Both the position numbers and the translations under genes were made by a program. From NCBI GenBank assembly GCA_963854735.1, contig OY978102.1, positions 1,240,001 to 1,304,000 of the forward strand: DNA of 64,000 nt, in the 5' to 3' direction. Below the pieces are notes generated by a model, which saw only the letters and a list, made by a program, of their open reading frames with translations, was not told where the DNA came from and did no database searches. The stretch is from Marvania coccoides (lineage: Eukaryota; Chlorophyta; Trebouxiophyceae; Chlorellales; Chlorellaceae). Positions 5,012 through 34,846 of the stretch are shown in pieces (within the stretch, counting starts at the first letter, position 1; the number at the start of each line of letters is the position of its first letter).

Positions 5012-6068
5012 TTAGACCTTGACGCCCTCGGGCAGCACGCGGGAGAGGATCTCTGCCGACAGCTTGGTCACCTGGGAGTCCAGGCCCTTGAGGGCGGCGT
5101 CCTTCTCCGACTCCAGCGTTGCCAGAGCGCGGGCGAGCTCGGCGTCCACCTTGGCCTTGGCGGCGGCCAGCTCCTTGGCGGCGTCAGCGGAGACGACCAT
5201 CTTGGCGTCAGCCACCTGCTTCTGGGCGGCGGAACGGGCCTCAGCAATGACCTTCTCGGCCTCGGCCTGCAGCTTGTTCACCTCGCCAGAGTTGTCCTTG
5301 ACGATCGCGAGCTTGTCGCGCAGCTGGCTATCACGGTCGTCAAGCAGCTTGCCGACGGGGGTGAACCAAGACTTCTCCAGGAACACCATGAGGAGCAGGA
5401 ACTGGCCGGCCATGATGGGGAGGGTGAAGTTAAAGTCGAAGATCTTTCCGGCCTCAGCGTGGGCGCCGAACGCCAGGACGGCGTTAGACAGGACGGTCAT
5501 GGCAGCGGGCTTCAGCAGGGCGGGAAGGGGACTGCGAATTGGGGAAAAGAGAGAGAGAAGAAAAATAAGATGGGTGATCGAGTGAAAGAGAAGGAAAAAA
5601 GGCGAGCCCTCCACCCCCAATGCCCGAGCGCCACGATACTGCAATATCCGCTGATGTCTGGAGACGCCCCTCAAATTGAATAGCGGGGGCCCACGCCGAT
5701 GCAGCCGCAAGATAGGGATATAAACTCCAGTTGAAAAACTCCACGATGCGTGCTGCACGCGGCCCAAAAGACGTCCAATTGGTGCGCGAAACGCAAATGT
5801 AGTCCAATCGGGCCGCCTCGTGGCCCCAGGCCCGCAAAACCGGCGATTGAATGCGTTGCTGACTCTTTTTTGCTCCTGCAATCGCCCCAGCTCGCTCCAG
5901 GCTGCCACATTTGCTCCCAACATTCGCTCCCAGGTGTTCCACCCGCTGACTGCCCACTTACGTCTTCTGTGCCTCAGCCCGGACCACCATTGACATGGCC
6001 CGCTTGGCGGGAGCCACGCGAGCCGCCGAAAAGGGGCGGACGCTCTGCTGAACAAGTGCGGTCTGCAT
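5012..6068 (-). CDS. ATPG: Chloroplast ATP synthase CF0 subunit b' (subunit II), nuclear encoded
   Basis: Two exons, 6068-5962 and 5531-5012, give 208 residues. Exon 1 is a plastid transit peptide (MQTALVQQSVRPFSAARV... to AEAQK). The phase-2 intron (GTAAGT donor) leads into TPLPALLKPAAMTVLSNAV, which can serve as a thylakoid-transfer segment. After it come IFDFNFTLPIMAGQFLLLM (the single membrane anchor) and a long Ala/Lys/Glu coiled coil to the C-terminus ending LPEGVKV. This is the b' subunit that pairs with plastid-encoded b to form the peripheral stalk of CF0CF1. The length and the split between transit peptide and mature chain match the family. Confidence 0.95.
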
Positions 6069-6276
6069 GTTGAAGATTCTGAGAGAATGATGAATGCGGT
6101 CGAGCAGCAGGAGTCGATTTATTGCTCGCTCTTAAAAAGAAAAGCCGGGCGGGGTCTACTAAAAAGGTGTTTGTGTGAAAAATAGGCACCCGTTTTATAA
6201 TCGCTTTACACGGCATACATCATCTGTACCAGACCTATCGGCTCAGCAGCCAAACTCGCCGAATTAAAAAAACACA
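6069..6276. promoter_or_regulatory. Divergent promoter region ATPG / NSUN2
   Basis: Only 208 bp separate the divergent start codons at 6068 and 6277, so both promoters are compact and partly shared. The DNA is AT-rich, and I cannot recognise a specific element. Confidence 0.5.
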
Positions 6277-9098
6277 ATGGGCAGGGGAAGAGGCCGTGGG
6301 GTACGCTTTTTCATGTGCAATTCCGCAAACTCGCATATGCAAATCGATCCACACTCCCCGATACATGCATAGCCGCGCCCACGCACCACATTCCTCACAT
6401 CCCACCCCACCACACATGCATTACATTTTTTATTTTTTTATTCCCCCTTCATTTTCCTAACCTGCAGAAGAAGCGCGTGTACAGCCGCGACTTTGGAACG
6501 CGCGGGGGGCGGGAGGACGTCTGGGATGCCAACAAGAGGGCCAAATCGGGGGGCTACGAGCCGGTGGTCCAGCACAATGCCGCCTTTGAAGAATACTACA
6601 AGGCACAAGGCATCTGTCCTGAGGACCAGTGGGAGGATTTCATGGCCACCCTGCGCCGCCCGCTGCCCCTCACCTTCCGCATCAACGGCGGCGGCCGGTT
6701 CGCCACCGCCCTGCGCACCAAGCTGGAAGCCGATTTTTTTGCCGACTTTGCCGCCGGCCCCATTTTCATCGACGGAGAGACGCTGAACCCGCCCCAGGCC
6801 CTGCCGTGGTACCCCGACAACCTGGGGTGGCAGCTGGAGTTCTCCCGCACCCAGCTGCGCAAGCTGCCGGCCCTGGAAGCACTGCACGAGTTCATCAAGC
6901 GGGAGACCACCGTGGGGGCAATCACTCGCCAGGAGGCGGTGTCCATGGTGCCCCCGCTGTTCCTGGACGTGGCGCCGCACCACCGGGTGCTGGACTCCTG
7001 CGCTGCGCCCGGGTCAAAGACTGCGCAATTGCTGGAGGCGCTGCACGCTGGGCCCGCCGAGCCGACGGGCGTTGTGGTGGCCAATGACGCCGACGCGCAG
7101 CGGTGCAACATGCTGTCGCACCAGACGCAGCGTATCCGCAGCCCTGCGGTGCTGGTGACTAACCACGAGGCCCAGAACTTCCCTTTGCTGTGGGATTTGG
7201 ACCCCGCCTCGCCGGACGCTAAAATGCAGTTCGACCGCGTGCTGTGCGATGTGCCATGCTCCGGGGATGGCACCCTGCGCAAGCAGCCCGATATATGGCG
7301 CAAGTGGACGGCGGCCAACGGCAACGGGCTGCACCTGCTGCAGCTGCGCATCGCGCTCCGCTCGTGCTGCCTTTTGAAGGTGGGGGGGCGCATGGTGTAC
7401 TCCACCTGCACGTTCAACCCCATCGAGGACGAAGCAGTGGTGGCAGAGGTGCTGCGCCGCACGGGGGGCGCCATGCGGCTTGTAGACGTGTCTGCAGAGC
7501 TGCCGGCGCTGAAGCGGGAGCTCGGAATGCGGCGGTGGAGGGTGCGGGAGAACGACACGTGGTACGATAGCTGGGAGGAGGGTAAGAGCGGACGGAAGCT
7601 GCAGCCCAGCATGTTCCCTGGCCCTGAGACCGAGGACTTCCCTCTGGAGCACTGCATGCGGTTTCTGCCGCAGGCCCAGAACACCGGAGGCTTCTTCGTG
7701 GCGGTGCTGGAGAAGGTGAGCGCGCTGGACGACGTGGTGGTGCCCCAGCCCTACGAGAAGCCGCCGCCGCGGGGCACTGAGCAGCCCAATGCGGAGGCGG
7801 AGGTGGAGGCGGTGGGGGGAGAGGAGGAGGGTGCTGCTGCTGCTGATGGTGATGCTGCTGCTGTGGAGGCAGAGGGGGTGGCCGTAAATGTGGTGGAAGA
7901 AGCGCCAGCTGCTGTTGCTGCTGCTGCCGAGCCAGAAGCGGCGGCCCCTGAGGTGGCAGAGAAGGAGACAGTGAGGGGCCGCCCGCGCAAGGTGCTGCCG
8001 GAGTGGGGCGCCGTGCGGGGTGGCGGCTGCCGCAACACCGAGCCCGTGGAGCCTGCTGCCGCTGTGGAAGCTCCGCCAACAGCAGCAGCAGCAGCAGACA
8101 ACAGCGAAGCTGCCGCCGGCGATGCCGCCGTTCCAGCCGCCGCTGCCGCTGCCGCGCCTATCAGAGAAAACCCCAACCGGCGCGGGCGGTGGCGCGGTAT
8201 CGACCCCATTGTGCCGTTTGTCAACTCCGCTGAGCTGGCTACAATTCGGAAGGCGTACGGCCTCGGCCCTGAGTGCCCCATCCCCGACCGCCTGGTGGCT
8301 CGCTCCCTGGAGGAGCGCCCCAAGCGGCTGTCGTACATTGGCGCGGGGAGCAAGCAGCTGCTGCTGATGGACGTGCGAGAGCAGCTCAAGGTGACCACTG
8401 CCGGCGTGAAAATGTTTGAGCGGCAGGAGAACCGGGAGCAGCTGCTGGCGTGCGTGTACCGCGTGTCGCAGGAGGGGCTGCCGCTGCTGCTGCCCTACAT
8501 CACGCGGCAGCGCTTCCAGCCCACCGCCGAGGAGTTGATCAAGATTTTGACGTTGCGGGCGGTGGGGCTCCCTGAGACGCTCAAAGTGCACATCACGGCT
8601 AAAACGGAGGGCGAAGGGGGTGCGGCTGACGAAGATGCGGCCAAGGAAGGAGAGGCGGTGAACGTGGAGGCGGCAGTGGCTGCAGCGGGAGAGGCGGCAG
8701 CGGCAGAAAATGGGGAAGGGGCGACAGCAGCAGCGACGGCTGCTGGCGGAGAGGCTGTGGCTGAGGCGGCGGAGCCGTCGCCGCAGAAGAAAGAGGTGCC
8801 TCGTTTCTTCCTCGCGGACTCTTCCACCCTTGAGCAGCTCTCCACCTCTGTAGTCTATGGCTGCTGCATCGCCACGCTGCGGCAGGAGGACGTGGCGTCG
8901 CTTGCGCTGGCGGCAGACGGCGTAGAGGGCGGCGTGGCTGCCAACGCCCCCATCTGTGTGACCTGCTGGCGGGGTCGCGGCAGCTTGAACGTGCTGGTAT
9001 CAAAGGAAGAGTGCTCGCAGATGGCGGAGAGGCTGCAGGCGGCGATTGACGCGCGGGCTGCTGCGGCTGTTGCCCAGCCAGTGGAAATTGCCGGTTGA
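6277..9098 (+). CDS. NSUN2: NSUN2/TRM4-type RNA cytosine-C5 methyltransferase
   Basis: A 24-nt first exon (6277-6300) encodes MGRGRGRG, a Gly/Arg start also typical of plant TRM4. It joins in phase 0 to exon 2 (6468-9098), giving 884 residues. The Rossmann MTase core (roughly residues 130-400) has the SAM-binding CAAPGSKTAQLLEAL and the two catalytic cysteines, in CDVPCSGDG (motif IV) and YSTCTFNPIEDE (motif VI), followed by the PUA-like C-terminal part. Family members methylate C5 of cytosines in tRNAs and other RNAs using S-adenosylmethionine. Two Ala/Glu/Val-rich low-complexity inserts (about residues 480-610 and 750-820) interrupt the C-terminal region and are probably disordered linkers. 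It starts 208 bp from the divergent ATPG gene. Confidence 0.93.
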
Positions 9099-19248: not shown

Positions 19249-19588
19249 CGCTTTGATTTATATTTTGCAAGCGATTATACTAAAACAGGGTGCCGGCGCC
19301 TCGGTGCGATGCAAAGATGGGTTGATTTTGATGGTAAAAATACATGCAACCAGCGAAATGGTGGCCTGATCAACACACATCGACATCCGAAGTTCGGATG
19401 ACCTCAGCCAATATATAATTTGTTTTGATGAAGCCTCGAAACTGATTTTGAAATTCAATTTTTAATTTATGTATATATTCACTTTCAGTCCACTACCATT
19501 AATGTGTAAAACCATCAATTATACGAGAGTTTATAAAACAACTATTTAATTGATTCAAAAATCTCTCCAGCAACCAACACGTCCCTGG
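19249..19588. promoter_or_regulatory. Divergent promoter region RIBH / hydroxyacid oxidase
   Basis: 340 AT-rich bp between divergent starts. One neighbour makes the flavin precursor lumazine, the other is an FMN enzyme; co-regulation is only a possibility. No motif is assigned. Confidence 0.45.
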
Positions 19589-20985
19589 ATGAAAATCAAC
19601 GGCAAGGCGTACGCCAGTCTTGGCGACCTGGAGGAGGACGCCAGGCAGCTGCTGCCGCCCACAGCCTACGCTTACTACGCCAGCGGGGCCGAGTCTCAAC
19701 TGACAAAAGCAGACAACCTGGCAGCCTTCACCCGTTGGCGCTTGCTGCCACGCTGCCTGGTGAACGTCGAGCACGTCGACACCTCCTGCCGCCTGTTCGG
19801 CACCTACCTTTCTTTTCCTGCCATCATAGCCCCCATGGCCATGCAGCGGATGGCGTGGCCGGAGGGAGAAGTCGCCATGGCAGCTGCCGCAGCCGCCGCT
19901 GGTATCCCAATGGCCCTTTCCACGATGGCCACATCGTCAATAGAGGAGGTGGCGGGCGCTGCTGGTGGTCCTGCGCTGTGGTTTCAGATGTACGTGTTGA
20001 CACGGAGAGACGTGAGCCAAGCCATGGTGCGACAGGCTGAAGCAGCTGGATTCAAAGCCCTGTTGGTCACAGTGGACGCGCCCCGACTAGGTGAGTTTTA
20101 TGTCTTTTTGGTTCCTATGGGTCATTCGATTTATAACCGGCATTATAATAATTTGATAGGAACTGTTTTCTCTGCGTGGAATGCTGAGATGCAGGTAAAA
20201 GAGATGCTGACGAGATCAATAAATTCACGCTCTCCGCTGGGCTGTCGTTGAAGCTGCTCGACCGCATGTCCGCTGCGGCAGCGAGCAGCAGCGGCGCTGG
20301 CGACCACGAGCCAGCTGACGGCAGCAAATTTGGGCGGCATTTCACGGACTTGATAGATGGGAGTCTAACCTGGGAGTTCCTTGCGTGGTTGAAAACCATC
20401 ACAAAGCTCCCCATTATCCTCAAAGTGAGTATTTTTCCAAATTGCGATTTTAAGACGGTAAATGCAGTTCTATTACTACGCTACAAATGTTAACCAATTC
20501 TGTTCAACAATAATTCTGAAAACGCGAACCTTTATCGCATCCGTATTTTTGCTTTTATTTTTCAGGGCATTCTCTCGCCTGACGACGCTCGAAAAGCGGT
20601 GGAACTGGGCGCCGACGGCATCGTCGTGTCCAACCACGGCGGCAGACAATTGGACACCTGCCCGGCATCAATAGACGTATTACCCTTCATTGCAGCCGCT
20701 GTGGCCGGCAGGGTCCCCATTTTGGTGGACGGGGGCGTGAGAAGAGGGACAGACGTGATCAAGTGCATGGCGTTGGGGGCGAGCGCAGTGCTGGTGGGGA
20801 GGCCGCTGCTGTGGGCGTTGACGCTGGGCGGGAGGGACGGCGTGGTGGCTGCCCTGGAGAATTTGAGGAGCGAGGTCGAGCTGGGGATGGCGCTGCTGGG
20901 GTGCCGGAGCGTGGCAGAGGTGACGGCTGATTTTGTGATTCCGCCGGAGCAAGGGATGCTGCGGCTGCCAGCGTGTAGGCTGTGA
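19589..20985 (+). CDS. FMN-dependent 2-hydroxyacid oxidase (glycolate/lactate oxidase family)
   Basis: Three exons (19589-20090, 20195-20424, 20566-20985) give 383 residues. Family landmarks in order: AYAYYASGAESQLT, FPAIIAPMAMQRMAWPEGE, ALSTMATSSIEEV, WFQMYVLTRRDVS, LLVTVDAPRLGKRDAD across intron 1, [14 protein letters not shown] across intron 2 (catalytic-loop Lys), [10 protein letters not shown] (catalytic His and Arg), [15 protein letters not shown] and VGRPLLWAL (FMN phosphate). The chain ends in Cys-Arg-Leu, which resembles a PTS1 peroxisomal signal. It oxidises an L-2-hydroxy acid with O2, giving the 2-oxo acid and H2O2; glycolate versus lactate cannot be told by eye. The 3' end of this gene was copied into the palindrome at 30.6-31.5 kb. 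Confidence 0.93.
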
Positions 20986-21042
20986 AATCAAGTAACGAAA
21001 TTATTTTCTTTTCAGCATTGGCGAAAGGCGAGGTTCAGGCAC

Positions 21043-21075
21043 AGAAGCCTTCTGTGAAGTTCTCAGAAGGCTTCT
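21043..21075. repeat. 12-bp stem hairpin in the oxidase 3' flank
   Basis: AGAAGCCTTCTG (21043-21054) is complementary to CAGAAGGCTTCT (21064-21075), loop 9 nt. It lies 58 bp after the oxidase stop codon. The copy in the palindrome spacer keeps it with one mismatch. It could be a 3' UTR RNA structure. Confidence 0.75.
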
Positions 21076-21371
21076 CATTATAGGCGCCGCTTTCGAGGAG
21101 GCAGAGCTAATCTTGTCAAATTTAGTTGCGGAATGTCAATTTCAAAATAATTATACCAAGTAATGACAAAGTCTGATCACTATGCTGCGATCAGGAGTCT
21201 CGCCAGGCCAAGCGTTTGTTTGTGGGCAATCTAGTTTTAGCCACATGTCTGCCAATTTGGGTAAAAACCCACGAAATTCGTCACGTGCGCAACGACGAAT
21301 GGTATCTGCGAGCCCTAACGATGACAAAGAGGGCACTCCGCTAGGTCAGACGTTCTCTCGATCACATTCAA

Positions 21372-25675: not shown

Positions 25676-28600
25676 TCACTCGTCTACTACCGAAGGGGAT
25701 ATCTGTCTCAGTATGGCCATGACTTCAGGGAAAGAAGGCCTTTGTGCTGGGTTCTGGGCCCAGCAGCGCTGCATGAGCTCCACGTAGCGAGACAACCCAA
25801 GCCATGCGCCGCTATTGGGGCCAGGCAGCTGGTGGGGCAGTGGAATAGGCAGCCTGTCGCCAACTATGACGCTGTTGGCTATATGGAAAGGAGACCCAGG
25901 CACCCAAGGCAGTCTGAAGGTGAGCATCTCCCAGAGAACAACTCCAAAAGCGAAAACATCCGACGCAGGGGTAGCGGGATGCCCCTGCAGAACTTCTGGG
26001 GCCTGCATACAGCGGAACAAAAGAACAATCCGGGTAAGAGCCAGTTCTAAAATTGAAGCAAGAGCATGGGCGCAGCGCGTGAAGCCAAATTACAAAATGC
26101 CGTTTCACATATATATCAACTGCCGTCAATCACAAATTTGAGCGAACTTGCCAACCAGCGGGGGTTCATGGCCTGGACACTGGAAGATTGCGCCATGTAG
26201 GCTTCCAGGAACACCCGAGACAAGTTGAAATCCGCAACTTTGACAGTCCAGTGTCTGCACACGAAGGAAATCAAGTTCCTATCAGAAATTTCAAAACACA
26301 AGCAACGCGCAAGAATGGGCAGGCCTGTGAACACTCTCAGCCCACTATGGCTGCCTGGTTGGTAGATCAACAGCCATGCCCTGGATTAACTAATATTAGT
26401 TCAGCGCACCTAGTGACCAGGAGATTCGGGGATTTGAGGTCGCGATGGATGATGGCAGGGGTGCGCGAGTGCAGGTAAATCATCCCGCGCACGCAGTCTG
26501 CAGCCATGCCCATGCGACGCTCCCAGGTCAGCTCGGCAGCTCGTTCAGGCATCTCCAAGGCCTTCCGCAGCACCCCGGCCAGGCTTCCCTTTGCACAATA
26601 GTCAGTGACGATGGTGGCTGGCACCCTGGTGATGCCCAGGAATTGCACTGCATACATATCGTAAGTAGAAATTATATGTGACCGCAACTTCAATTAGCTA
26701 AATTCCTGTTGTTCATGTCAATCAACCGACCTATGTTTGGGTGGCGCAGTTCGGCCATGATGGAACATTCCTGCATCGGAACTCAAAACAGGAAGGGAAT
26801 TAATGAAATTTCATTTTGCCACCCCTCCAATGGCATGCACAATGGCCGCTAGCAAGTTAAAGCTCAGTTAGTCTGTAACCACACTCCATTCTGGACAAAT
26901 ATTTATTTCATTTATGACAGGAAAACCTTGGTGTTCACTGACTTGGATCAGGTTTTGCATGATGGGACTGGAGACTTGCACGAGGGCTGACTCAGTCGCG
27001 GCAATCGCGGTTTGCGAGGTAGATGAGGGATCTAGCAGCACTTTCACAGCGACATGCGTGTCGTGATACTTTGCAAGGTAGACACGGCCCCAAGAGCCAA
27101 TGCCAATGGCGTTCTTCAGGTGGAAGTCTTCAAACCGAAGCTCCCAGCTGGCGAGAGCGTCGCGGGGGGTGGTGTGGGGCCCTGTCCCGATGAGTAGGAG
27201 GATGGGGTCAGACGTGAGATCCCCTGAAGGCAGCGAAACTGTGCCTGAACTCATGTCAGGCGGGTCAAAATGCCCAGCAGACTGTCTTTCACGCAAAGAT
27301 GTGTCATCCAGAGGCTGGCTTGATTGAGAGGCAGGCGGGAGCAGCGAAAGTCCCATTTCAGCGTAGACTTCAGGGAGCGCGGAAGACAGCTGCGATAATT
27401 TGTATTCGTCGTATGGCTTGGTTTCTGGGTACAGATCAGGGTCGATGGGGGGAAAGGGGGTGGCCGAGGGTGGATATGGAAAGTCAACCGGGGCCGGTAT
27501 AGCCACCGCTGCTGTCTCTCGCTCTATCTTTTTCTTACGCACCATAAAATATGAGAATGCCCCAGCAATTGCGCCTGCATCGACGCGAAAAAACGCGCAG
27601 TTGAGGAGGATTGCTTATCAGTTTGCAGAGCTCGATTTACGAATTTCCAGTTTGTAGTACGTACGTACGTACGTATGTATGTATGTATGTATGTATGTAT
27701 GTATGTATGTATGTATGTATGTATGTATGTATGTATGTATGTATGTATGTATGTATGTATGTATGTATGTATGTATGTATGTATGTATGTATGTATGTAT
27801 GTATGTATGTATGTATGTATGTATGTATGTATGTATGTATGTATGTATGTATGTATGTATGTATGTATGTATGTATGTATGTATGTATGTATGTATGTAT
27901 GTATGTATGTATGTATGTATGTATGTATGTATGTATGTATGTATGTATGTATGTATGTATGTATGTATGTGTGCTCGCAATAGGCATTTGCTGCTCAGGG
28001 ACAGAGAAAGAAAATTCTCTCACCTACGCCGAGCACGGCGGCGACCACTGCTCCGGCTACTACGGCGGTATTTGTAGACGGCGCAGGAGATGGCGGTGGA
28101 GGAGGAGACGCAGGAGGTGACGGTGGAGGAGGAGACGGCGGGCGAGGCGGCTCCTGGGGAGCAGTAATTGAATTGAAGGAAAAAAATGTTATCCACACAC
28201 CATCTACAATATTATAAAACATAAGCAACGCGAATTGCACGGAGAGAAAACAAAAATGCAGGGGGACCAAAGGAAATTCAACAGTGTCCAAAGTATATAA
28301 ACTCACTGAACTTGGTCCCGCGATGGTGAGAGAGCAGTATGAAAACGTCTTCCCGATGCCGATTCCATCATCGGAGAGAAACTCCTCCGTGACAAAGACA
28401 AAAAGTGAGGAGCAAACTGCAATGAGTGCAATACATCACAGATGAAGGACACGGGTCAGCAGAGAGTGACACAAACCAACGCAAATGGGACAGACACCAG
28501 CATGTGCAGGGCATGTGCAGGGCCCTGCAAACACCAGATGCCACAGGTGTGGCGACGGCTCGTACCTGGAGAGGTGTCCAACGCAGCTCTGCAGGCCGTG

Positions 28601-29951
28601 GGGCAGGTCCCAGTGGTTGCACCAGAGCTTGCAATATCCAAAAGGCCTGTTGTGCAAGACACAAAGCCTTCAGGGTTGTCATTCAGCCAGAAGTCGGTAC
28701 AGTTTGGGTTCTGGAGAGGGGGTGCTGGACTTGGCGAAGTGGCCTGCACGCAGCATGCCGCCGTGGGTTTTTATTTAATTGTCGTTTAGACCAAGTATTT
28801 GTATTGGCAGCAGCGGGGTGATGCTGCCATAATGATAGTAATAGGAAGAACATGCTTCATGGTATACAAACTCACTGAAGGTGGTCCCGCGATGGTGAGC
28901 GAGCAGTACGAAAACGTCTTCCCGATGCCAATGCCCTCATCGGAGAGAACTTCCTCCATGACAACGTCAAAAGCTGAGGAGCAAACTGCAATGAGTAATA
29001 CAACACAGATGAAGCGCACGGGTCAGCAGAGAGTGACACAAACCAACGCAAATGGGACAGACACCAGCATGTGCAGGGCATGTGCAGGGCCCTGCAAACA
29101 CCAGATGCCACAGGTGTGGCGACGGCTCGTACCTGGAGAGGTGTCCAACGCAGCTCTGCAGGCCGTGGGGCAGGTCCCAGTGGTTGCACCAGAGCTTGCA
29201 ATATCCAAAAGGCCTGATGTGCAAGACACAAAGCCTTCAGGGTTGTCATTCAGCCAGAAGTCGGTACAGTTTGGGTTCTGGAGAGGGGGTGGTGGACTTG
29301 GCGAAGTGGCCTGCACGCAGCATGCCGCCGTGGGTTTATTTTACTGTCTTGTAGACCAGGTATTTGTATTGGAAGCAACGGGGTGGTGCCGCCATAGTGA
29401 TAGTAATAGGAACTGAAGCAAATGTTGCACGGTATACAAACTCACTGAACGTGGTCCCGCGATGGTGAGAGAGCAGTATGAAAACGTCTTCCCGATGCCA
29501 ATGCCCTCATCGGAGAGATATTCCTCCACGACAACGTCAAAAGCTGAGGAGCAAACTGCAATGAGTACAATACAACACAGATGAAGCGCACGGGTCAGCA
29601 GAGAGTGACACAAACCAACGCAAATGGGACAGACACCAGCATGTGCAGGGCATGTGCAGGGCCCTGCAAACACCAGATGCCACAGGTGTGGCGACGGCTC
29701 GTACCTGGAGAGGTGTCCAACGCAGCTCTGCAGGCCGTGGGGCAGGTCCCAGTGGTTGCACCAGAGCTTTCAATTGCAAAGAGGCCATCTACGCATGACC
29801 TGAAGCCTTCAGGGTTGTCATTCAGCCAGAAGTCGGTGCAGTTTGGGTTCTGGAGGAGCGCACGCCCCAAAGCGGACCGCACAGTGGGGGCGGCGTGCGC
29901 GGTTGTTGCAATGAACGCACAGATAGCTAGCGCTATCCAAAGATTGCGGGC
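25676..29951 (-). CDS. Receptor-like TKL kinase with three six-cysteine ectodomain modules
   Basis: Twelve coding exons close exactly in phase to 800 residues: 29951-29705, 29555-29446, 29310-29133, 28985-28876, 28743-28566, 28416-28307, 28153-28024, 27574-26943, 26770-26731, 26647-26410, 26254-26152, 26002-25676. Order: signal peptide (LWIALAICAFIATTAHA), three ~96-aa modules (motifs NPNCTDFWLNDNPEG, TGTCPTACRAAL, VCSSAFD, GIGIGKTFSYCSL), a PPSPPPPSPP stalk, a TM helix split by an intron (NTAVVAGAVVAAVLGV|GAIAGAFSYFMVRKKK), then a kinase: IGIGSWGRVYLAKY, VAVKVLL, ECSIMAELRHPNI, IIHRDLKSPNLLV, DFN in place of DFG, WLAPEVLQG, and ASDVFAFGVVLWEML. All catalytic residues seen are present, so it is probably an active Ser/Thr(Tyr) kinase. 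The last intron is GC-AG (TTG|GCAAGT at 26152/26151). The initiating ATG is not certain; an ATG-only exon at 30034-30032 would fit (80-nt intron). The ectodomain family is unrecognised; the ligand is unknown. Confidence 0.88.
27655..27971. repeat. Tetranucleotide microsatellite (GTAC)n-(GTAT)n, about 78 units
   Basis: Roughly 310 bp of almost uninterrupted GTAT units, with a few GTAC units at the left end. It lies in the intron that divides the transmembrane helix of the receptor kinase (between exons 28153-28024 and 27574-26943). The long reading frames it creates in both directions are artefacts of the repeat. Confidence 0.98.
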
Positions 29952-30445
29952 CTGTACATGTATGTATCACGGGGTGTATGATAAAAAGTCCTTGAGCCGC
30001 GTCACGTGGATAGGCAGTTCGTTCGTATAACCATTGTACGCTCGGAGGTCCCGGGCAATAATGCAACAATAACAAGCTGTAAAAACATGTGAAAATGGAG
30101 GGCGCGGCATGGAAAACGCACCATTCGTCTGCAGTTCGCACTCGACAATCCCTAGCGCACAAAACTGCTTGGATATAGTCAGGGGGCCAGGAGGCGTCGC
30201 ACGGTCCAGATGCAGGCCAGAGTACAACTGCAGAGTTTAATACAACGGCCTTTTCTCCCAATAGGGTTGGCGACTCGCATTGAAGCAGGCGAGTTGCCCG
30301 GGGACTAGAATTTATCGCCCAAAAAAAACAAAAAAGGGAAAGAGGGCGGCCGGACGCCTGCTCTGCACTTTAATACAAGTAAGCCATAGAAAAAAGTGTA
30401 CGCCATGCAGGAAAACGCGTGTTTTGTTTGCCAGGCGTCCGTACG

Positions 30446-30634
30446 ATGATCCCCCTCACAATCGTGGCTCTCTTGTGCTGCGGTTTCGTCCAGCTATCCA
30501 GGGGATTGATGATTGAAAATGAATGTGTGGAAGACGTCGATGTCTTTGTGACTGCCACAACGCCTGTGGTCGATCGAGGCAAGCCGTATTCCATAGAACC
30601 CTCTGAACTTCTGCGCGGCCGTCATCACGTTTGA
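30446..30634 (+). CDS. Small secreted-peptide open frame, left-arm copy
   Basis: Sixty-two residues from the ATG at 30446: a strong signal peptide (MIPLTIVALLCCGFVQLSRG) followed by ENECVEDVDVFVTATTPVVD and an RGKPYSIEP segment, to a stop at 30634. Upstream, GTTTTGTTTGCCAG resembles a splice acceptor of a leader intron. It may be only the first exon of something larger, since sequence 3' of it is a transplanted oxidase fragment. I do not recognise the family. It is divergent from the kinase gene and points into the palindrome centre. Confidence 0.45.
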   Translation: MIPLTIVALLCCGFVQLSRGLMIENECVEDVDVFVTATTPVVDRGKPYSIEPSELLRGRHHV

Positions 30635-30663
30635 TATATATATATATATGGTTTATTTTTCAG

Positions 30664-30931
30664 GGCATTCTCTCGCCTGACGACGCCCGAAGAGCGGTGG
30701 AGCTGGTCGCCCGACGGCATCGTCTTGTCCAACCACGGCGGCAGGCAATTGGACACCTCCCCCGCAGCAATAGACGTATTACGCTTCATTGCAGCCGCTG
30801 TGGCCGGGGGGGTCCCCATTTTGGTGGACGGTGGCGTGAGAAGAGGGACAGAAGTGATCAAGTGCATGGCTTTGGGGGTGAGCGTGGTGCTGGTGGGGAG
30901 GCCGCTGCTGTGGGCGTTGATGATGGGCGGG
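30664..30931 (+). pseudogene. Truncated copy of the hydroxyacid oxidase exon 3 (left arm)
   Basis: It matches the oxidase gene from about 20555 (last ~11 nt of intron 2 plus its AG) into exon 3, then stops abruptly at the spacer boundary. A one-base insertion in CTGGTCGCCCGACGGC (parent CTGGGCGCCGACGGC) shifts the frame after AVEL, so SNHGGRQLD is out of frame with the start of the exon. The long overlapping frame-shifted reading is not credible as a protein. Confidence 0.9.
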
Positions 30932-31230
30932 CAACTAAATTTGACAAAATTAGCTCTGCCTCCTCGAAAGCGGCGCCGCCGCCTATAAAGAGAAGCTTTC
31001 TGAGAACTTCACAGAAGGCTTCTGTGCCTGAACCTCGCCTTTCGCCAATGCTGAAAAAAAATAAACGTTACTTGATTTCACAGCCTGGATGCTGGCAGCC
31101 TCAGCATCCCTTGCTCCGGCGGAATCACAAAATCAGCCGTCACCTCTGCCACGCTCCGGCACCCCAGCAGCGCCATCCCCAGCTCGACCTCGCTCCTCGA
31201 ATTCTCCAGGGCAGCCACCACACCATCCCT
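30932..31230. repeat. Palindrome spacer (299 bp): oxidase 3' sequence in reverse orientation
   Basis: Read on the minus strand it continues the right-arm oxidase copy through the stop codon (31080-31078) and 3' flank, including the hairpin, to the sequence TTAGTTGC, matching the parental gene down to about 21129. It is present once and so marks the asymmetric centre of the palindrome. Confidence 0.9.
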
Positions 31231-31498
31231 CCCGCCCATCATCAACGCCCACAGCAGCGGCCTCCCCACCAGCACCACGCTCACCCCCAAAGCCATGCAC
31301 TTGATCACTTCTGTCCCTCTTCTCACGCCACCGTCCACCAAAATGGGGACCCCCCCGGCCACAGCGGCTGCAATGAAGCGTAATACGTCTATTGCTGCGG
31401 GGGAGGTGTCCAATTGCCTGCCGCCGTGGTTGGACAAGACGATGCCGTCGGGCGACCAGCTCCACCGCTCTTCGGGCGTCGTCAGGCGAGAGAATGCC
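31078..31498 (-). pseudogene. Copy of the complete hydroxyacid oxidase exon 3 (right arm), frameshifted
   Basis: The whole third exon of the 19589-20985 oxidase gene plus the end of its intron, with the same single-base insertion as the left-arm copy (near 31450). After the insertion the frame is open to the stop ([33 protein letters not shown]) and ends in Ser-Arg-Leu, a canonical PTS1 tripeptide, where the parent has Cys-Arg-Leu. Exons 1 and 2 are absent, so it cannot make an oxidase. Confidence 0.92.
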
Positions 31499-33859
31499 CT
31501 GAAAAATAAACCATATATATATATATATATCAAACGTGATGACGGCCGCGCAGAAGTTCAGAGGGTTCTATGGAATACGGCTTGCCTCGATCGACCACAG
31601 GCGTTGTGGCAGTCACAAAGACATCGACGTCTTCCACACATTCATTTTCAATCATCAATCCCCTGGATAGCTGGACGAAACCGCAGCACAAGAGAGCCAC
31701 GATTGTGAGGGGGATCATCGTACGGACGCCTGGCAAACAAAACACGCGTTTTCCTGCATGGCGTACACTTTTTTCTATGGCTTACTTGTATTAAAGTGCA
31801 GAGCAGGCGTCCGGCCGCCCTCTTTCCCTTTTTTGTTTTTTTTGGGCGATAAATTCTAGTCCCCGGGCAACTCGCCTGCTTCAATGCGAGTCGCCAACCC
31901 TATTGGGAGAAAAGGCCGTTGTATTAAACTCTGCAGTTGTACTCTGGCCTGCATCTGGACCGTGCGACGCCTCCTGGCCCCCTGACTATATCCAAGCAGT
32001 TTTGTGCGCTAGGGATTGTCGAGTGCGAACTGCAGACGAATGGTGCGTTTTCCATGCCGCGCCCTCCATTTTCACATGTTTTTACAGCTTGTTATTGTTG
32101 CATTATTGCCCGGGACCTCCGAGCGTACAATGGTTATACGAACGAACTGCCTATCCACGTGACGCGGCTCAAGGACTTTTTATCATACACCCCGTGATAC
32201 ATACATGTACAGGCCCGCAATCTTTGGATAGCGCTAGCTATCTGTGCGTTCATTGCAACAACCGCGCACGCCGCCCCCACTGTGCGGTCCGCTTTGGGGC
32301 GTGCGCTCCTCCAGAACCCAAACTGCACCGACTTCTGGCTGAATGACAACCCTGAAGGCTTCAGGTCATGCGTAGATGGCCTCTTTGCAATTGAAAGCTC
32401 TGGTGCAACCACTGGGACCTGCCCCACGGCCTGCAGAGCTGCGTTGGACACCTCTCCAGGTACGAGCCGTCGCCACACCTGTGGCATCTGGTGTTTGCAG
32501 GGCCCTGCACATGCCCTGCACATGCTGGTGTCTGTCCCATTTGCGTTGGTTTGTGTCACTCTCTGCTGACCCGTGCGCTTCATCTGTGTTGTATTGTACT
32601 CATTGCAGTTTGCTCCTCAGCTTTTGACGTTGTCGTGGAGGAATATCTCTCCGATGAGGGCATTGGCATCGGGAAGACGTTTTCATACTGCTCTCTCACC
32701 ATCGCGGGACCACGTTCAGTGAGTTTGTATACCGTGCAACATTTGCTTCAGTTCCTATTACTATCACTATGGCGGCACCACCCCGTTGCTTCCAATACAA
32801 ATACCTGGTCTACAAGACAGTAAAATAAACCCACGGCGGCATGCTGCGTGCAGGCCACTTCGCCAAGTCCACCACCCCCTCTCCAGAACCCAAACTGTAC
32901 CGACTTCTGGCTGAATGACAACCCTGAAGGCTTTGTGTCTTGCACATCAGGCCTTTTGGATATTGCAAGCTCTGGTGCAACCACTGGGATCTGCCCCACG
33001 GCCTGCAGAGCTGCGTTGGACACCTCTCCAGGTACGAGCCGTCGCCACATCTGTGGCATCTGGTGTTTGCAGGGCATGCCCTCCACATGCTGGTGTCTGT
33101 CCCATTTGCGTTGGTTTGTGTCACTCTCTGCTGACCCGTGCGCTTCATCTGTGTTGTATTGTACTCATTGCAGTTTGCTCCTCAGCTTTTGACGTTGTCA
33201 TGGAGGAAGTTCTCTCCGATGAGGGCATTGGCATCGGGAAGACGTTTTCGTACTGCTCGCTCACCATCGCGGGACCACCTTCAGTGAGTTTGTATACCAT
33301 GAAGCATGTTCTTCCTATTACTATCATTATGGCAGCATCACCCCGCTGCTGCCAATACAAATACTTGGTCTAAACGACAATTAAATAAAAACCCACGGCG
33401 GCATGCTGCGTGCAGGCCACTTCGCCAAGTCCAGCACCCCCTCTCCAGAACCCAAACTGTACCGACTTCTGGCTGAATGACAACCCTGAAGGCTTTGTGT
33501 CTTGCACAACAGGCCTTTTGGATATTGCAAGCTCTGGTGCAACCACTGGGACCTGCCCCACGGCCTGCAGAGCTGCGTTGGACACCTCTCCAGGTACGAG
33601 CCGTCGCCACACCTGTGGCATCTGGTGTTTGCAGGGCCCTGCACATGCCCTGCACATGCTGGTGTCTGTCCCATTTGCGTTGGTTTGTGTCACTCTCTGC
33701 TGACCCGTGTCCTTCATCTGTGATGTATTGCACTCATTGCAGTTTGCTCCTCACTTTTTGTCTTTGTCACGGAGGAGTTTCTCTCCGATGATGGAATCGG
33801 CATCGGGAAGACGTTTTCATACTGCTCTCTCACCATCGCGGGACCACGTTCAGTGAGTT
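31231..33859 (-). repeat. Right arm of 2.63-kb palindrome
   Basis: Inverted counterpart of 28302-30931. Outside the outer boundary (about 33859) the two sides are unrelated in colinear terms: to the left the stalk, TM and kinase exons follow, while to the right another module copy, a stalk and a GPI-like exon follow. The different flanks argue against a simple assembly fold-back. Confidence 0.95.
31530..31718 (-). CDS. Small secreted-peptide open frame, right-arm copy
   Basis: Same 62-residue product as the frame at 30446-30634, with no amino-acid difference visible. Signal peptide, then an acidic segment with one cysteine. It is separated from the following oxidase fragment only by a short AT repeat. 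It converges on its twin across the palindrome centre. Confidence 0.45.
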   Translation of the reverse strand: MIPLTIVALLCCGFVQLSRGLMIENECVEDVDVFVTATTPVVDRGKPYSIEPSELLRGRHHV

Positions 33860-34846
33860 TTTATACCGTGCAACATTTGCTTCAGTTCCTATTACTATCA
33901 CTATGGCGGCACCACCCCGTTGCTTCCAATACAAATACCTGGTCTACAAGACAGTAAAATAAACCCACGGCGGCATGCTGCGTGCAGGCCACTTCGCCAA
34001 GTCCACCACCCCCTCTTCAGAACCTAAACTGTACCGACTTCTGGCTGAATGACAACCCTGAAGGCTTTGTGTCTTGCACATCAGGCCTTTTGGATATTGC
34101 AAGCTCTGGTGCAACCACTGGGATCTGCCCCACGGCCTGCAGAGCTGCGTTGGACACCTCTCCAGGTACGAGCCGTCGCCACATCTGTGGCATCTGGTGT
34201 TTGCAGGGCATGCCCTGCACATGCTGGTGTCTGTCCCATTTGCGTTGGTTTGTGTCACTCTCTGCTGACCCGTGCGCTTCATCTGTGTTGTATTGTACTC
34301 ATTGCAGTTTGCTCCTCAGCTTTTGACGTTGTCATGGAGGAAGTTCTCTCCGATGAGGGCATTGGCATCGGGAAGACGTTTTCGTACTGCTCGCTCAACA
34401 TAGTCGGACCAAGCTCGGACCCAGTGAGTCTGTATGGGTTTAATGGTAGAGTGTTTACATTTTTCTTCTTTTTTTCTGCATTCCCCCCCTGCATTTTTCT
34501 TGCGTCCCCCCTGCAATTCTCTCTATTTTGGGTTTATAATTTTGTAGTTGGTGTTTGCATTAAAAACGATTCTCAATTCAGTATTTGCTTCGACTTGTAG
34601 AGCTCGCCACCAACCCAAACACCATCTCCCGTGCCAAGTACGTCACCACCGTCCTCGTCAAGCCCCCCATGCACTGGCGCCAATGGCATACTAGACTGTG
34701 GACCGCCTGTTGACACGGAGAACGCCCCTCCTGTTGAACCGCTAAACGTCCCGCCTCCACCTCCCAAGTCCAAGAGCAACGCACCTGGGAAATGGCAGGC
34801 CGTAGTCTCTTCCACCTTGCTCGTCGCATTTTTTTTTATGGTTTAA
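32213..34846 (+). CDS. GPI-anchored ectodomain paralogue of the receptor kinase (four modules, no kinase)
   Basis: Nine exons close in phase to 490 residues: 32213-32459, 32609-32718, 32854-33031, 33174-33283, 33416-33593, 33743-33852, 33988-34165, 34308-34423, 34601-34846. The first six are the palindromic twins of the kinase-gene exons: same signal peptide and three six-cysteine modules, including NPNCTDFWLNDNPEG and FSYCSL. A fourth module lies outside the palindrome. The last exon encodes a Ser/Pro-rich stalk (SSPPTQTPSPVPSTSPP), PPPPPKSKSNAPGK and a hydrophobic end (WQAVVSSTLLVAFFFMV), the layout of a GPI-attachment signal with a small-residue omega site near SNA. It should be a surface or shed protein with the same binding face as the kinase, possibly a decoy or co-receptor (inference). 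The start codon is uncertain; ATG 32130-32132 as a tiny exon fits. Confidence 0.85.

Follow-up and report, generated by a model that had tools for sequence, protein, structure and literature searches.

A receptor kinase gene and a GPI-like gene with nearly identical ectodomains, head to head in a palindrome of the green alga Marvania coccoides

At the S locus of Brassica, the gene for the receptor kinase SRK is linked to SLG, which encodes a separate protein highly similar to the SRK extracellular domain (PMC10316313, in excerpt). On mammalian sex chromosomes and in willow, palindrome arms are more than 99% identical, and this identity is credited to gene conversion (excerpts of PMC8981503 and PMC7023750). 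Receptor-like kinases (RLKs) of chlorophytes are few, numbering none to about four per genome, a count that may omit CTR1-like kinases (PMC10868138, in excerpt). Here we analyze 64,000 nucleotides (the window; positions 1240001-1304000 of contig 6) of the 22.46 Mb, 15-contig genome of Marvania coccoides, in which a receptor kinase gene and a gene with a tail resembling a glycosylphosphatidylinositol (GPI) signal, which we call the GPI-like gene, stand head to head in the arms of a palindrome. Gene conversion occurs between SRK and SLG, and in the cases of DcR1, CEBiP/CERK1 and LORELEI/FERONIA a GPI-anchored protein acts with or against a membrane receptor. For the algal locus we favor, with a probability of roughly 0.6, an old head-to-head pair of a kinase gene and a GPI-anchored protein gene in which a recent copying event made the 5' halves identical, the GPI protein most likely taking part in the same perception event as the kinase. 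The features are given below in window coordinates.

25676-30124, minus strand: receptor kinase gene, 13 exons, 801 amino acids (spliced open frame)
30124-30122, 29951-29705, 29555-29446, 29310-29133, 28985-28876, 28743-28566, 28416-28307, 28153-28024, 27574-26943, 26770-26731, 26647-26410, 26254-26152, 26002-25676, minus strand: exons of the kinase gene
32040-34846, plus strand: GPI-like gene, 10 exons, 491 amino acids (spliced open frame)
32040-32042, 32213-32459, 32609-32718, 32854-33031, 33174-33283, 33416-33593, 33743-33852, 33988-34165, 34308-34423, 34601-34846, plus strand: exons of the GPI-like gene
28307-30931, minus strand: left palindrome arm, with oxidase fragment, 5' flank and kinase-gene exons 1-7 (arm alignment)
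31231-33852, plus strand: right palindrome arm, with oxidase fragment, 5' flank and GPI-like-gene exons 1-7 (arm alignment)
30932-31230, no strand: asymmetric center of 299 nt, contiguous with the oxidase copy of the right arm (sequence comparison)
28191-28265, minus strand: block of the intron after the last kinase-gene module, homologous to 34485-34560 (58 of 74 ungapped columns identical)
34485-34560, plus strand: counterpart of the preceding block, in the intron downstream of the GPI-like gene's last module (same alignment)
32990-33161, plus strand: module-2 tract of the GPI-like gene, with five departures from the left arm (module comparison)
33853-34423, plus strand: extra fourth module and its preceding intron, mostly like module 2, with a distinct GPI-specific end (module comparison)
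30931-31510, minus strand: 93% identical copy, in inverse orientation, of 20554-21129, where a hydroxy-acid-oxidase gene about 10 kb away has its last exon and 3' flank (sequence comparison)

The gene models, for this pair and for a second one on contig 3, were built from sequence only. Both window proteins open with an apparent signal peptide, MARNLWIALAICAFIATTAHA, of which the ATG stands alone in exon 1 (the least certain exon of the models). In the kinase protein this is followed by three six-cysteine modules, a Pro-rich (SPPPP-rich) stalk, a transmembrane (TM)-like segment and a CTR1-like kinase domain; in the GPI-like protein it is followed by four modules, a Ser/Pro stalk that carries CTGANGILDCGPP and a CTGxxGxLDC motif, and a hydrophobic carboxyl-terminal tail. 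Each module consists of two exons with a phase-1 intron between them, and a phase-1 intron also interrupts the TM-like segment of the kinase (this intron contains an ACAT tetranucleotide repeat of about 300 nt, at 27660-27968). The 19-residue hydropathy of the kinase protein peaks at residues 7-25 and 343-361, with MVRKKK after the second peak; a weaker peak sits within the kinase domain. That domain matches Pfam PF07714 (expectation value [E] 6.5e-50), and its closest solved relative is plant CTR1 (3ppz, E 3.6e-55). The catalytic motifs VAVK and HRDLKSPN are present and the DFG position reads DFN, as it does in 16 of 16 printed relatives and in the kinase at locus L037 (the plus-strand kinase at locus L027, on contig 7, retains DFG). 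The gene thus fits a TKL (CTR1/Raf-like) receptor kinase, with its signal peptide and TM helix predicted from hydropathy. In the GPI-like protein, the carboxyl-terminal end NAPGKWQAVVSSTLLVAFFFMV resembles a GPI signal by eye, as does the tail SNAPGKWQAVVSSTLLVAFFFMV up to the stop codon, with a 15-residue hydropathy of 2.40. Across the ectodomain that the two proteins share, 310 of 312 residues are identical and two differ. A preliminary description of this DNA had claimed two intact frames, a kinase gene with modules, TM helix and TKL kinase, and three modules on the left against four on the right with a stalk and GPI-like tail, all of which agree with the spliced frames, the Pfam match and the hydropathy; its counts of 12 and 9 exons differ from the 13 and 10 found here, and the ATG-only first exon may explain the gap.

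Aligned end to end, the two arms (30931 to 28307 against 31231 to 33852) form an imperfect inverted repeat, which bears out the palindrome with two head-to-head genes that had been described. The alignment has 2,629 columns, of which 15 differ, representing four substitutions and indels of 2, 7 and 2 nt (one of the 2-nt indels is a TA-repeat difference). Three of the substitutions and two of the indels lie within 29174-28998, and the fourth substitution lies five bases from the arm end. A tract of about 1.47 kb (30649 to 29175), coding and non-coding, including 5' flank and introns, is free of substitutions; near-identity therefore extends to the non-coding DNA of the arms, given that the four substitutions are spread over 2,629 columns that span introns and 5' flank. 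Just outside the arms, by contrast, the introns that follow the last modules contain the homologous but diverged block listed above. This block aligns with a score of 56; the best of 500 dinucleotide shuffles reached 43, and no control comparison among 1,818 made in other parts of the window exceeded 28. A diverged homologous block outside and identical arms inside indicate an older inverted pair of which the inner part was recently homogenized. Near-identical non-coding arms and older divergence beyond the converted tract, the two marks of a converting palindrome, are thus both present, and the arm-to-arm conversion proposed earlier is supported to the extent of homogenization at this locus (1.47 kb without substitution inside, against 58 of 74 columns just outside). 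The modules themselves seem to have exchanged sequence after the arms became identical: module 2 differs between the two genes at five places, and at three of them (two substitutions and the 7-nt gap) the right gene has the state of module 4, the left gene that of modules 1 and 3. Of the remaining two differences, each gene has one to itself. Identity between module 2 and the final module exon of the GPI-like gene is complete over about 90 nt and then drops sharply, a further mark of older divergence beyond the converted tract.

The direction of copying can be considered from the oxidase fragment. The window contains a longer hydroxy-acid-oxidase gene (open reading frame [ORF] 19550-20251 plus a last exon to 20984, a partial view of the gene), and similarity of the fragment to this gene is contiguous over the right arm and the center and stops at the fold-back junction, whereas the left arm repeats just 280 nt of the copy (30652-30931). 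Because the fragment is contiguous on the right and truncated on the left, the right arm appears to be the donor. On the simplest reading, which draws on this one junction, the right arm and its flank would be original and the left arm a copy, the GPI-like gene having supplied the kinase gene with promoter and ectodomain. The fold-back join shares about one base (assuming that the oxidase copy once continued as the oxidase gene does), and this single junction would resemble end joining. The fragment's frame ends in SRL, which we take to be a peroxisomal signal, and the frame of the full oxidase gene ends in CRL.

Most likely, then, a one-sided, break-repair-like event with the GPI-like gene as template would have overwritten the promoter and first three modules of the kinase gene, continued into the oxidase fragment between the genes, and been closed by end joining, leaving the 299-nt asymmetric center. 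The outcome would be the same 5' flank (about half a kilobase is common to both genes) and the same recognition face on two genes, one product signaling through a CTR1/Raf-like kinase and the other attached through a GPI anchor to the outer leaflet of the membrane. From the identical 5' flank, co-expression of the two genes is predicted.

Near-identical arms are a classical assembly trap, and one arm might have been produced by a fold-back or a chimeric join. We regard such an artifact as very improbable: the arms continue into two different, open and frame-compatible 3' halves and the center is asymmetric, which a plain fold-back does not explain; the oxidase copy accounts for this asymmetry; an extra module, four substitutions and three indels separate the arms; and the pair on contig 3 provides a natural precedent.

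That pair was found by querying the genome with the module, which returned 14 exon matches at the window locus and a single weak one on contig 3 (E 7.3e-4; locus L016). The locus is a second head-to-head kinase/GPI-like pair with both frames open, as follows (coordinates within L016).

6039-9059, plus strand: kinase gene, 9 exons, 730 amino acids, with two modules, a TM-like segment and a kinase reading DMG
5436-3625, minus strand: GPI-like gene, 5 exons plus an unpinned start, with four modules

Its six modules are each 20-40% identical to a module of the window locus and, as judged from exon lengths, a phase-1 intron splits the modules and the TM segments in both pairs. The tail of the GPI-like protein, CTGSGGSLDCTP...VWLAALAASSLAFICLT, is related to that of the window protein (in 2,000 shuffles the core reached no more than 50, against its actual score of 62, and the whole tail no more than 77, against 89), and the motif CTGxxGxLDC is common to both. 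No DNA palindrome was detected at L016, where the sole match was a low-complexity stretch of 24 nt. The existence of a second, diverged head-to-head pair indicates that the pairing of a kinase with a GPI-like gene is not a one-off, and an open reading frame kept in a GPI-like gene despite strong divergence argues for the use of such genes. Because the contig-3 ectodomains have diverged from each other, identical binding faces are no general requirement; the earlier proposal that conversion keeps the binding faces identical consequently does not hold as a general rule.

The contig-3 pair also bears on the origin of the locus, which the preliminary description attributed to inverted duplication. 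If the 5' half of a receptor kinase gene had been duplicated once, recently and in inverted orientation, and had captured a GPI-type 3' end, this by itself would yield arms that are almost identical and end sharply at the center, with neither an older pair nor conversion. We consider this quite unlikely, because it leaves the diverged homologous intron block outside the arms and the distinct GPI-specific end of module 4 unexplained, and because a diverged pair with a related tail on contig 3 makes it improbable that the window pair is the fresh product of one inverted duplication; the proposed origin is revised to this extent.

As to function, the preliminary description suggested a matched decoy or co-receptor. 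The likeliest role of the GPI protein is to join in the perception of the kinase's ligand, as co-receptor or competitor; the two products may share a ligand or contact each other. Participation in the same perception event ranks first, and two other roles rank about equally behind it. The GPI-like gene might have no role of its own and be a by-product of duplication whose similarity conversion has preserved. Linked SRK and SLG offer a precedent for this (PMC10316313, in excerpt). We nevertheless hold it to be unlikely, given that both GPI-like genes are open (the contig-3 gene after deep divergence) and have the tail motif in common. Both proteins might instead be homophilic adhesion molecules for cell-cell or cell-wall contact, for example in mating or aggregation, as would suit stalked surface proteins that bear small, repeated, cysteine-rich modules, near-identical in both partners. 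This too seems improbable: no known domain, of the adhesion type or otherwise, shows credible homology to the modules, and no mating-type or adhesion gene was recognized by eye among window ORFs of at least 230 amino acids, for which no family search was made. The contig-3 pair has diverged but kept both frames open, which favors a use for the GPI-like gene and counts against any general need for identical faces.

Several points weigh against the old, recently homogenized pair that we prefer. The outer-flank homology is one block of 77 columns. The gene models and the anchoring are predictions from sequence, the GPI anchoring and signal peptides being judged from hydropathy and composition, and GC donors are needed in one intron at the window locus (the last of the kinase gene) and in two on contig 3. 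Matched faces are not kept in general, as the contig-3 ectodomains have diverged and that kinase has two modules against four in its partner; two pairs, moreover, are no proof of selection for the arrangement. A third module-bearing kinase (L027, C7:723000-732900; one module, E 3.6e-4) has no GPI partner and lies tail to tail with another kinase, and our scan for pairs leaves about 50 of some 70 kinase places outside. The by-product role also draws strength from Brassica, where SLG is reportedly treated in one paper as a pseudogene preserved by gene conversion.

The scan was based on a kinase query of the genome, which gave 106 exon matches in about 70 places by hand count. Beyond the two pairs, it took in 20 stretches (L017-L036), each 9-10 kb long and placed around the best kinase matches, with opposite-strand matches retained at E of 1e-3 or less and at least 30 amino acids. 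No head-to-head ectodomain pair was found at these 20 kinase loci (L037 lies outside the scan); head-to-head rows at L027 were rejected as antisense shadows of its tail-to-tail kinases. A crude TM pattern was present upstream in 17 of the 25 kinases examined; this pattern overlooks a TM segment that an intron interrupts, as at L037, and its matches at L017, L021 and L031 are doubtful and may be false.

In a tree of the 25 kinases (9 of 22 inner branches starred; 9 of 23 chained rows held stops, read as X, and hence intron residues), the window and contig-3 kinases fall into different clades, and a sister relationship between them is rejected by the approximately unbiased (AU) test (p 2.6e-6; the AU-tested groups were named after the tree was seen). 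Since the kinases are not sisters, duplication of the pair as one unit is not simply supported. The tail-to-tail kinases on contig 7 share an ectodomain type ('NECP'; 31% identity, E 1.3e-22) and do not form one kinase clade (AU p 1.6e-7); ectodomain ORFs related to this type also occur at L035 and L017. These patterns suggest that ectodomains and kinases have been reassorted in this genome. In the two pairs, the same ectodomain type, tail and orientation accompany kinases of two clades, so that modules appear to have moved between signaling domains while a matched GPI partner was kept. We raise, tentatively and as a somewhat doubtful generalization, the idea that divergent inverted repeats act as a device for transplanting ectodomains, through which the GPI-anchored gene donates modules and promoter to the neighboring receptor kinase.

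Other kinase loci also appear to have been duplicated. Near-identical kinases occur at L018, L019, L021 and L022, at the ends of contigs 12, 13 and 3 and about 15 kb or less from them, with two pairs having branch lengths of 0-0.02, suggesting subtelomeric spread. Pairs of kinase matches with equal or nearly equal scores, 4-10 kb apart (C7:631554/641139, C4:1873841/1883973 and C6:724589/728392), are, by score and spacing alone, probably further recent local duplicates.

We evaluated the distribution of the module among relatives of the kinase domain, for which there were 2,261 matches. Among the 120 of these that were listed, many are unlabeled and the named ones are nearly all from trebouxiophyte green algae (including Chlorella, Micractinium, Nannochloris, Auxenochlorella, Parachlorella and Prototheca), with one label, Phypoly, that suggests a slime mold; the first 15 are 44-57% identical. 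This makes a trebouxiophyte host probable. A module profile scanned over these 120 (best E of the reversed-sequence control, 0.73) gave the following matches.

P0070 (Chlorella ohadii): module, E 6.3e-6
P0119 (C. sorokiniana): module, E 2.2e-5
P0069 (C. vulgaris): module, E 6.3e-4
P0065 (Micractinium): module, E 0.002
P0057: module, weaker, E 0.012
P0108: module, weaker, E 0.061

The six cysteines align in all six proteins, P0108 having a long insert, and high scores of these sequences under an enlarged profile arise by construction, because they were included in it. P0009 (E 0.0018, and 0.0029 with the enlarged profile) is doubtful, its cysteines fitting less well. These matches point to the module as an uncurated domain common to Chlorella-type receptor kinases. 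No credible curated Pfam family was found for the 14 modules, three families each matching one of the 14; the best match, Hydrophob_seed (E 0.0015, in one member), was rejected as the module fold, as was SLR1-BP, which matched the GPI-like protein of contig 3 below the family's cut-off (E 0.1). Among sequences in PDB, a search up to E 10 yielded one match at E 0.11, and none with the first profile, and kinship with elicitins, LTPs or LORELEI, suggested by the six-cysteine spacing, found no support. Neither the whole window GPI-like protein nor the contig-3 kinase ectodomain had a homologue at E of 1 or less among the 8,000 candidates scored in each search, and a module tree without a starred branch was left unused. 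Six Parachlorella and Micractinium proteins (P0026, P0029, P0039, P0042, P0050 and P0078) are listed with both a leucine-rich repeat (LRR) and a kinase domain, and P0042, P0050 and P0078 also have a TM-like helix, whereas an earlier survey reports no LRR-RLK in five other green algae (PMC5296948, in excerpt).

The systems introduced at the outset can now be compared with this locus. Like SRK and SLG, it links a receptor kinase to an ectodomain-only gene, here with 310 of 312 shared residues identical; it differs in that the algal kinase is, by its nearest solved relative, CTR1/Raf-like and not RLK/Pelle-type, the partner has a GPI-like tail, and the two genes are arranged head to head as a near-perfect palindrome. 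No Pfam match to the S-domain (B-lectin/SLG/PAN) was found in either window protein or in the modules which, together with the different kinase class, makes the locus an analogue of SRK/SLG and not a member. The Chlorella and Micractinium kinases are alike in having a six-cysteine module followed by a TM-like segment and a kinase that reads DFN, and differ in having one module against two to three here; we know of no GPI twin for these single-module receptor kinases. Compared with the sex-chromosome and willow palindromes, the algal arms are short (2.6 kb) and carry genes with different 3' halves, so that conversion homogenizes only the 5' flank and ectodomain half. With DcR1, CEBiP/CERK1 and LORELEI/FERONIA the likeness is one of role, a predicted one in the alga, and no sequence relation is claimed. 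SPARK-domain receptor kinases resemble it as green-lineage receptor kinases with a small extracellular domain (PMC11287157, in excerpt), and none of the 14 modules matched SPARK in Pfam, which has a SPARK model, at E up to 10; a remote relation may still exist. The open-licence literature searched yielded no description of a receptor-kinase/GPI pair in green algae, nor do the excerpted parts of PMC5002434 mention one. The preliminary description's statement that no such system is described in green algae is consistent with this limited search, with the qualification that this architecture works in the manner of SRK/SLG in Brassica (PMC10316313, in excerpt). What is new here is the second, diverged pair, the evidence for homogenization and its direction, the module in Chlorella and Micractinium kinases, and the finding that the paired kinases belong to different clades. 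Against the few RLKs described for chlorophytes, this small genome holds many related kinases and two loci with a GPI-like twin. A receptor and partner matched by DNA geometry, in which palindrome arms cover only the promoter and recognition half, thereby becomes testable, and the locus would represent a separate green-lineage parallel to SRK/SLG.

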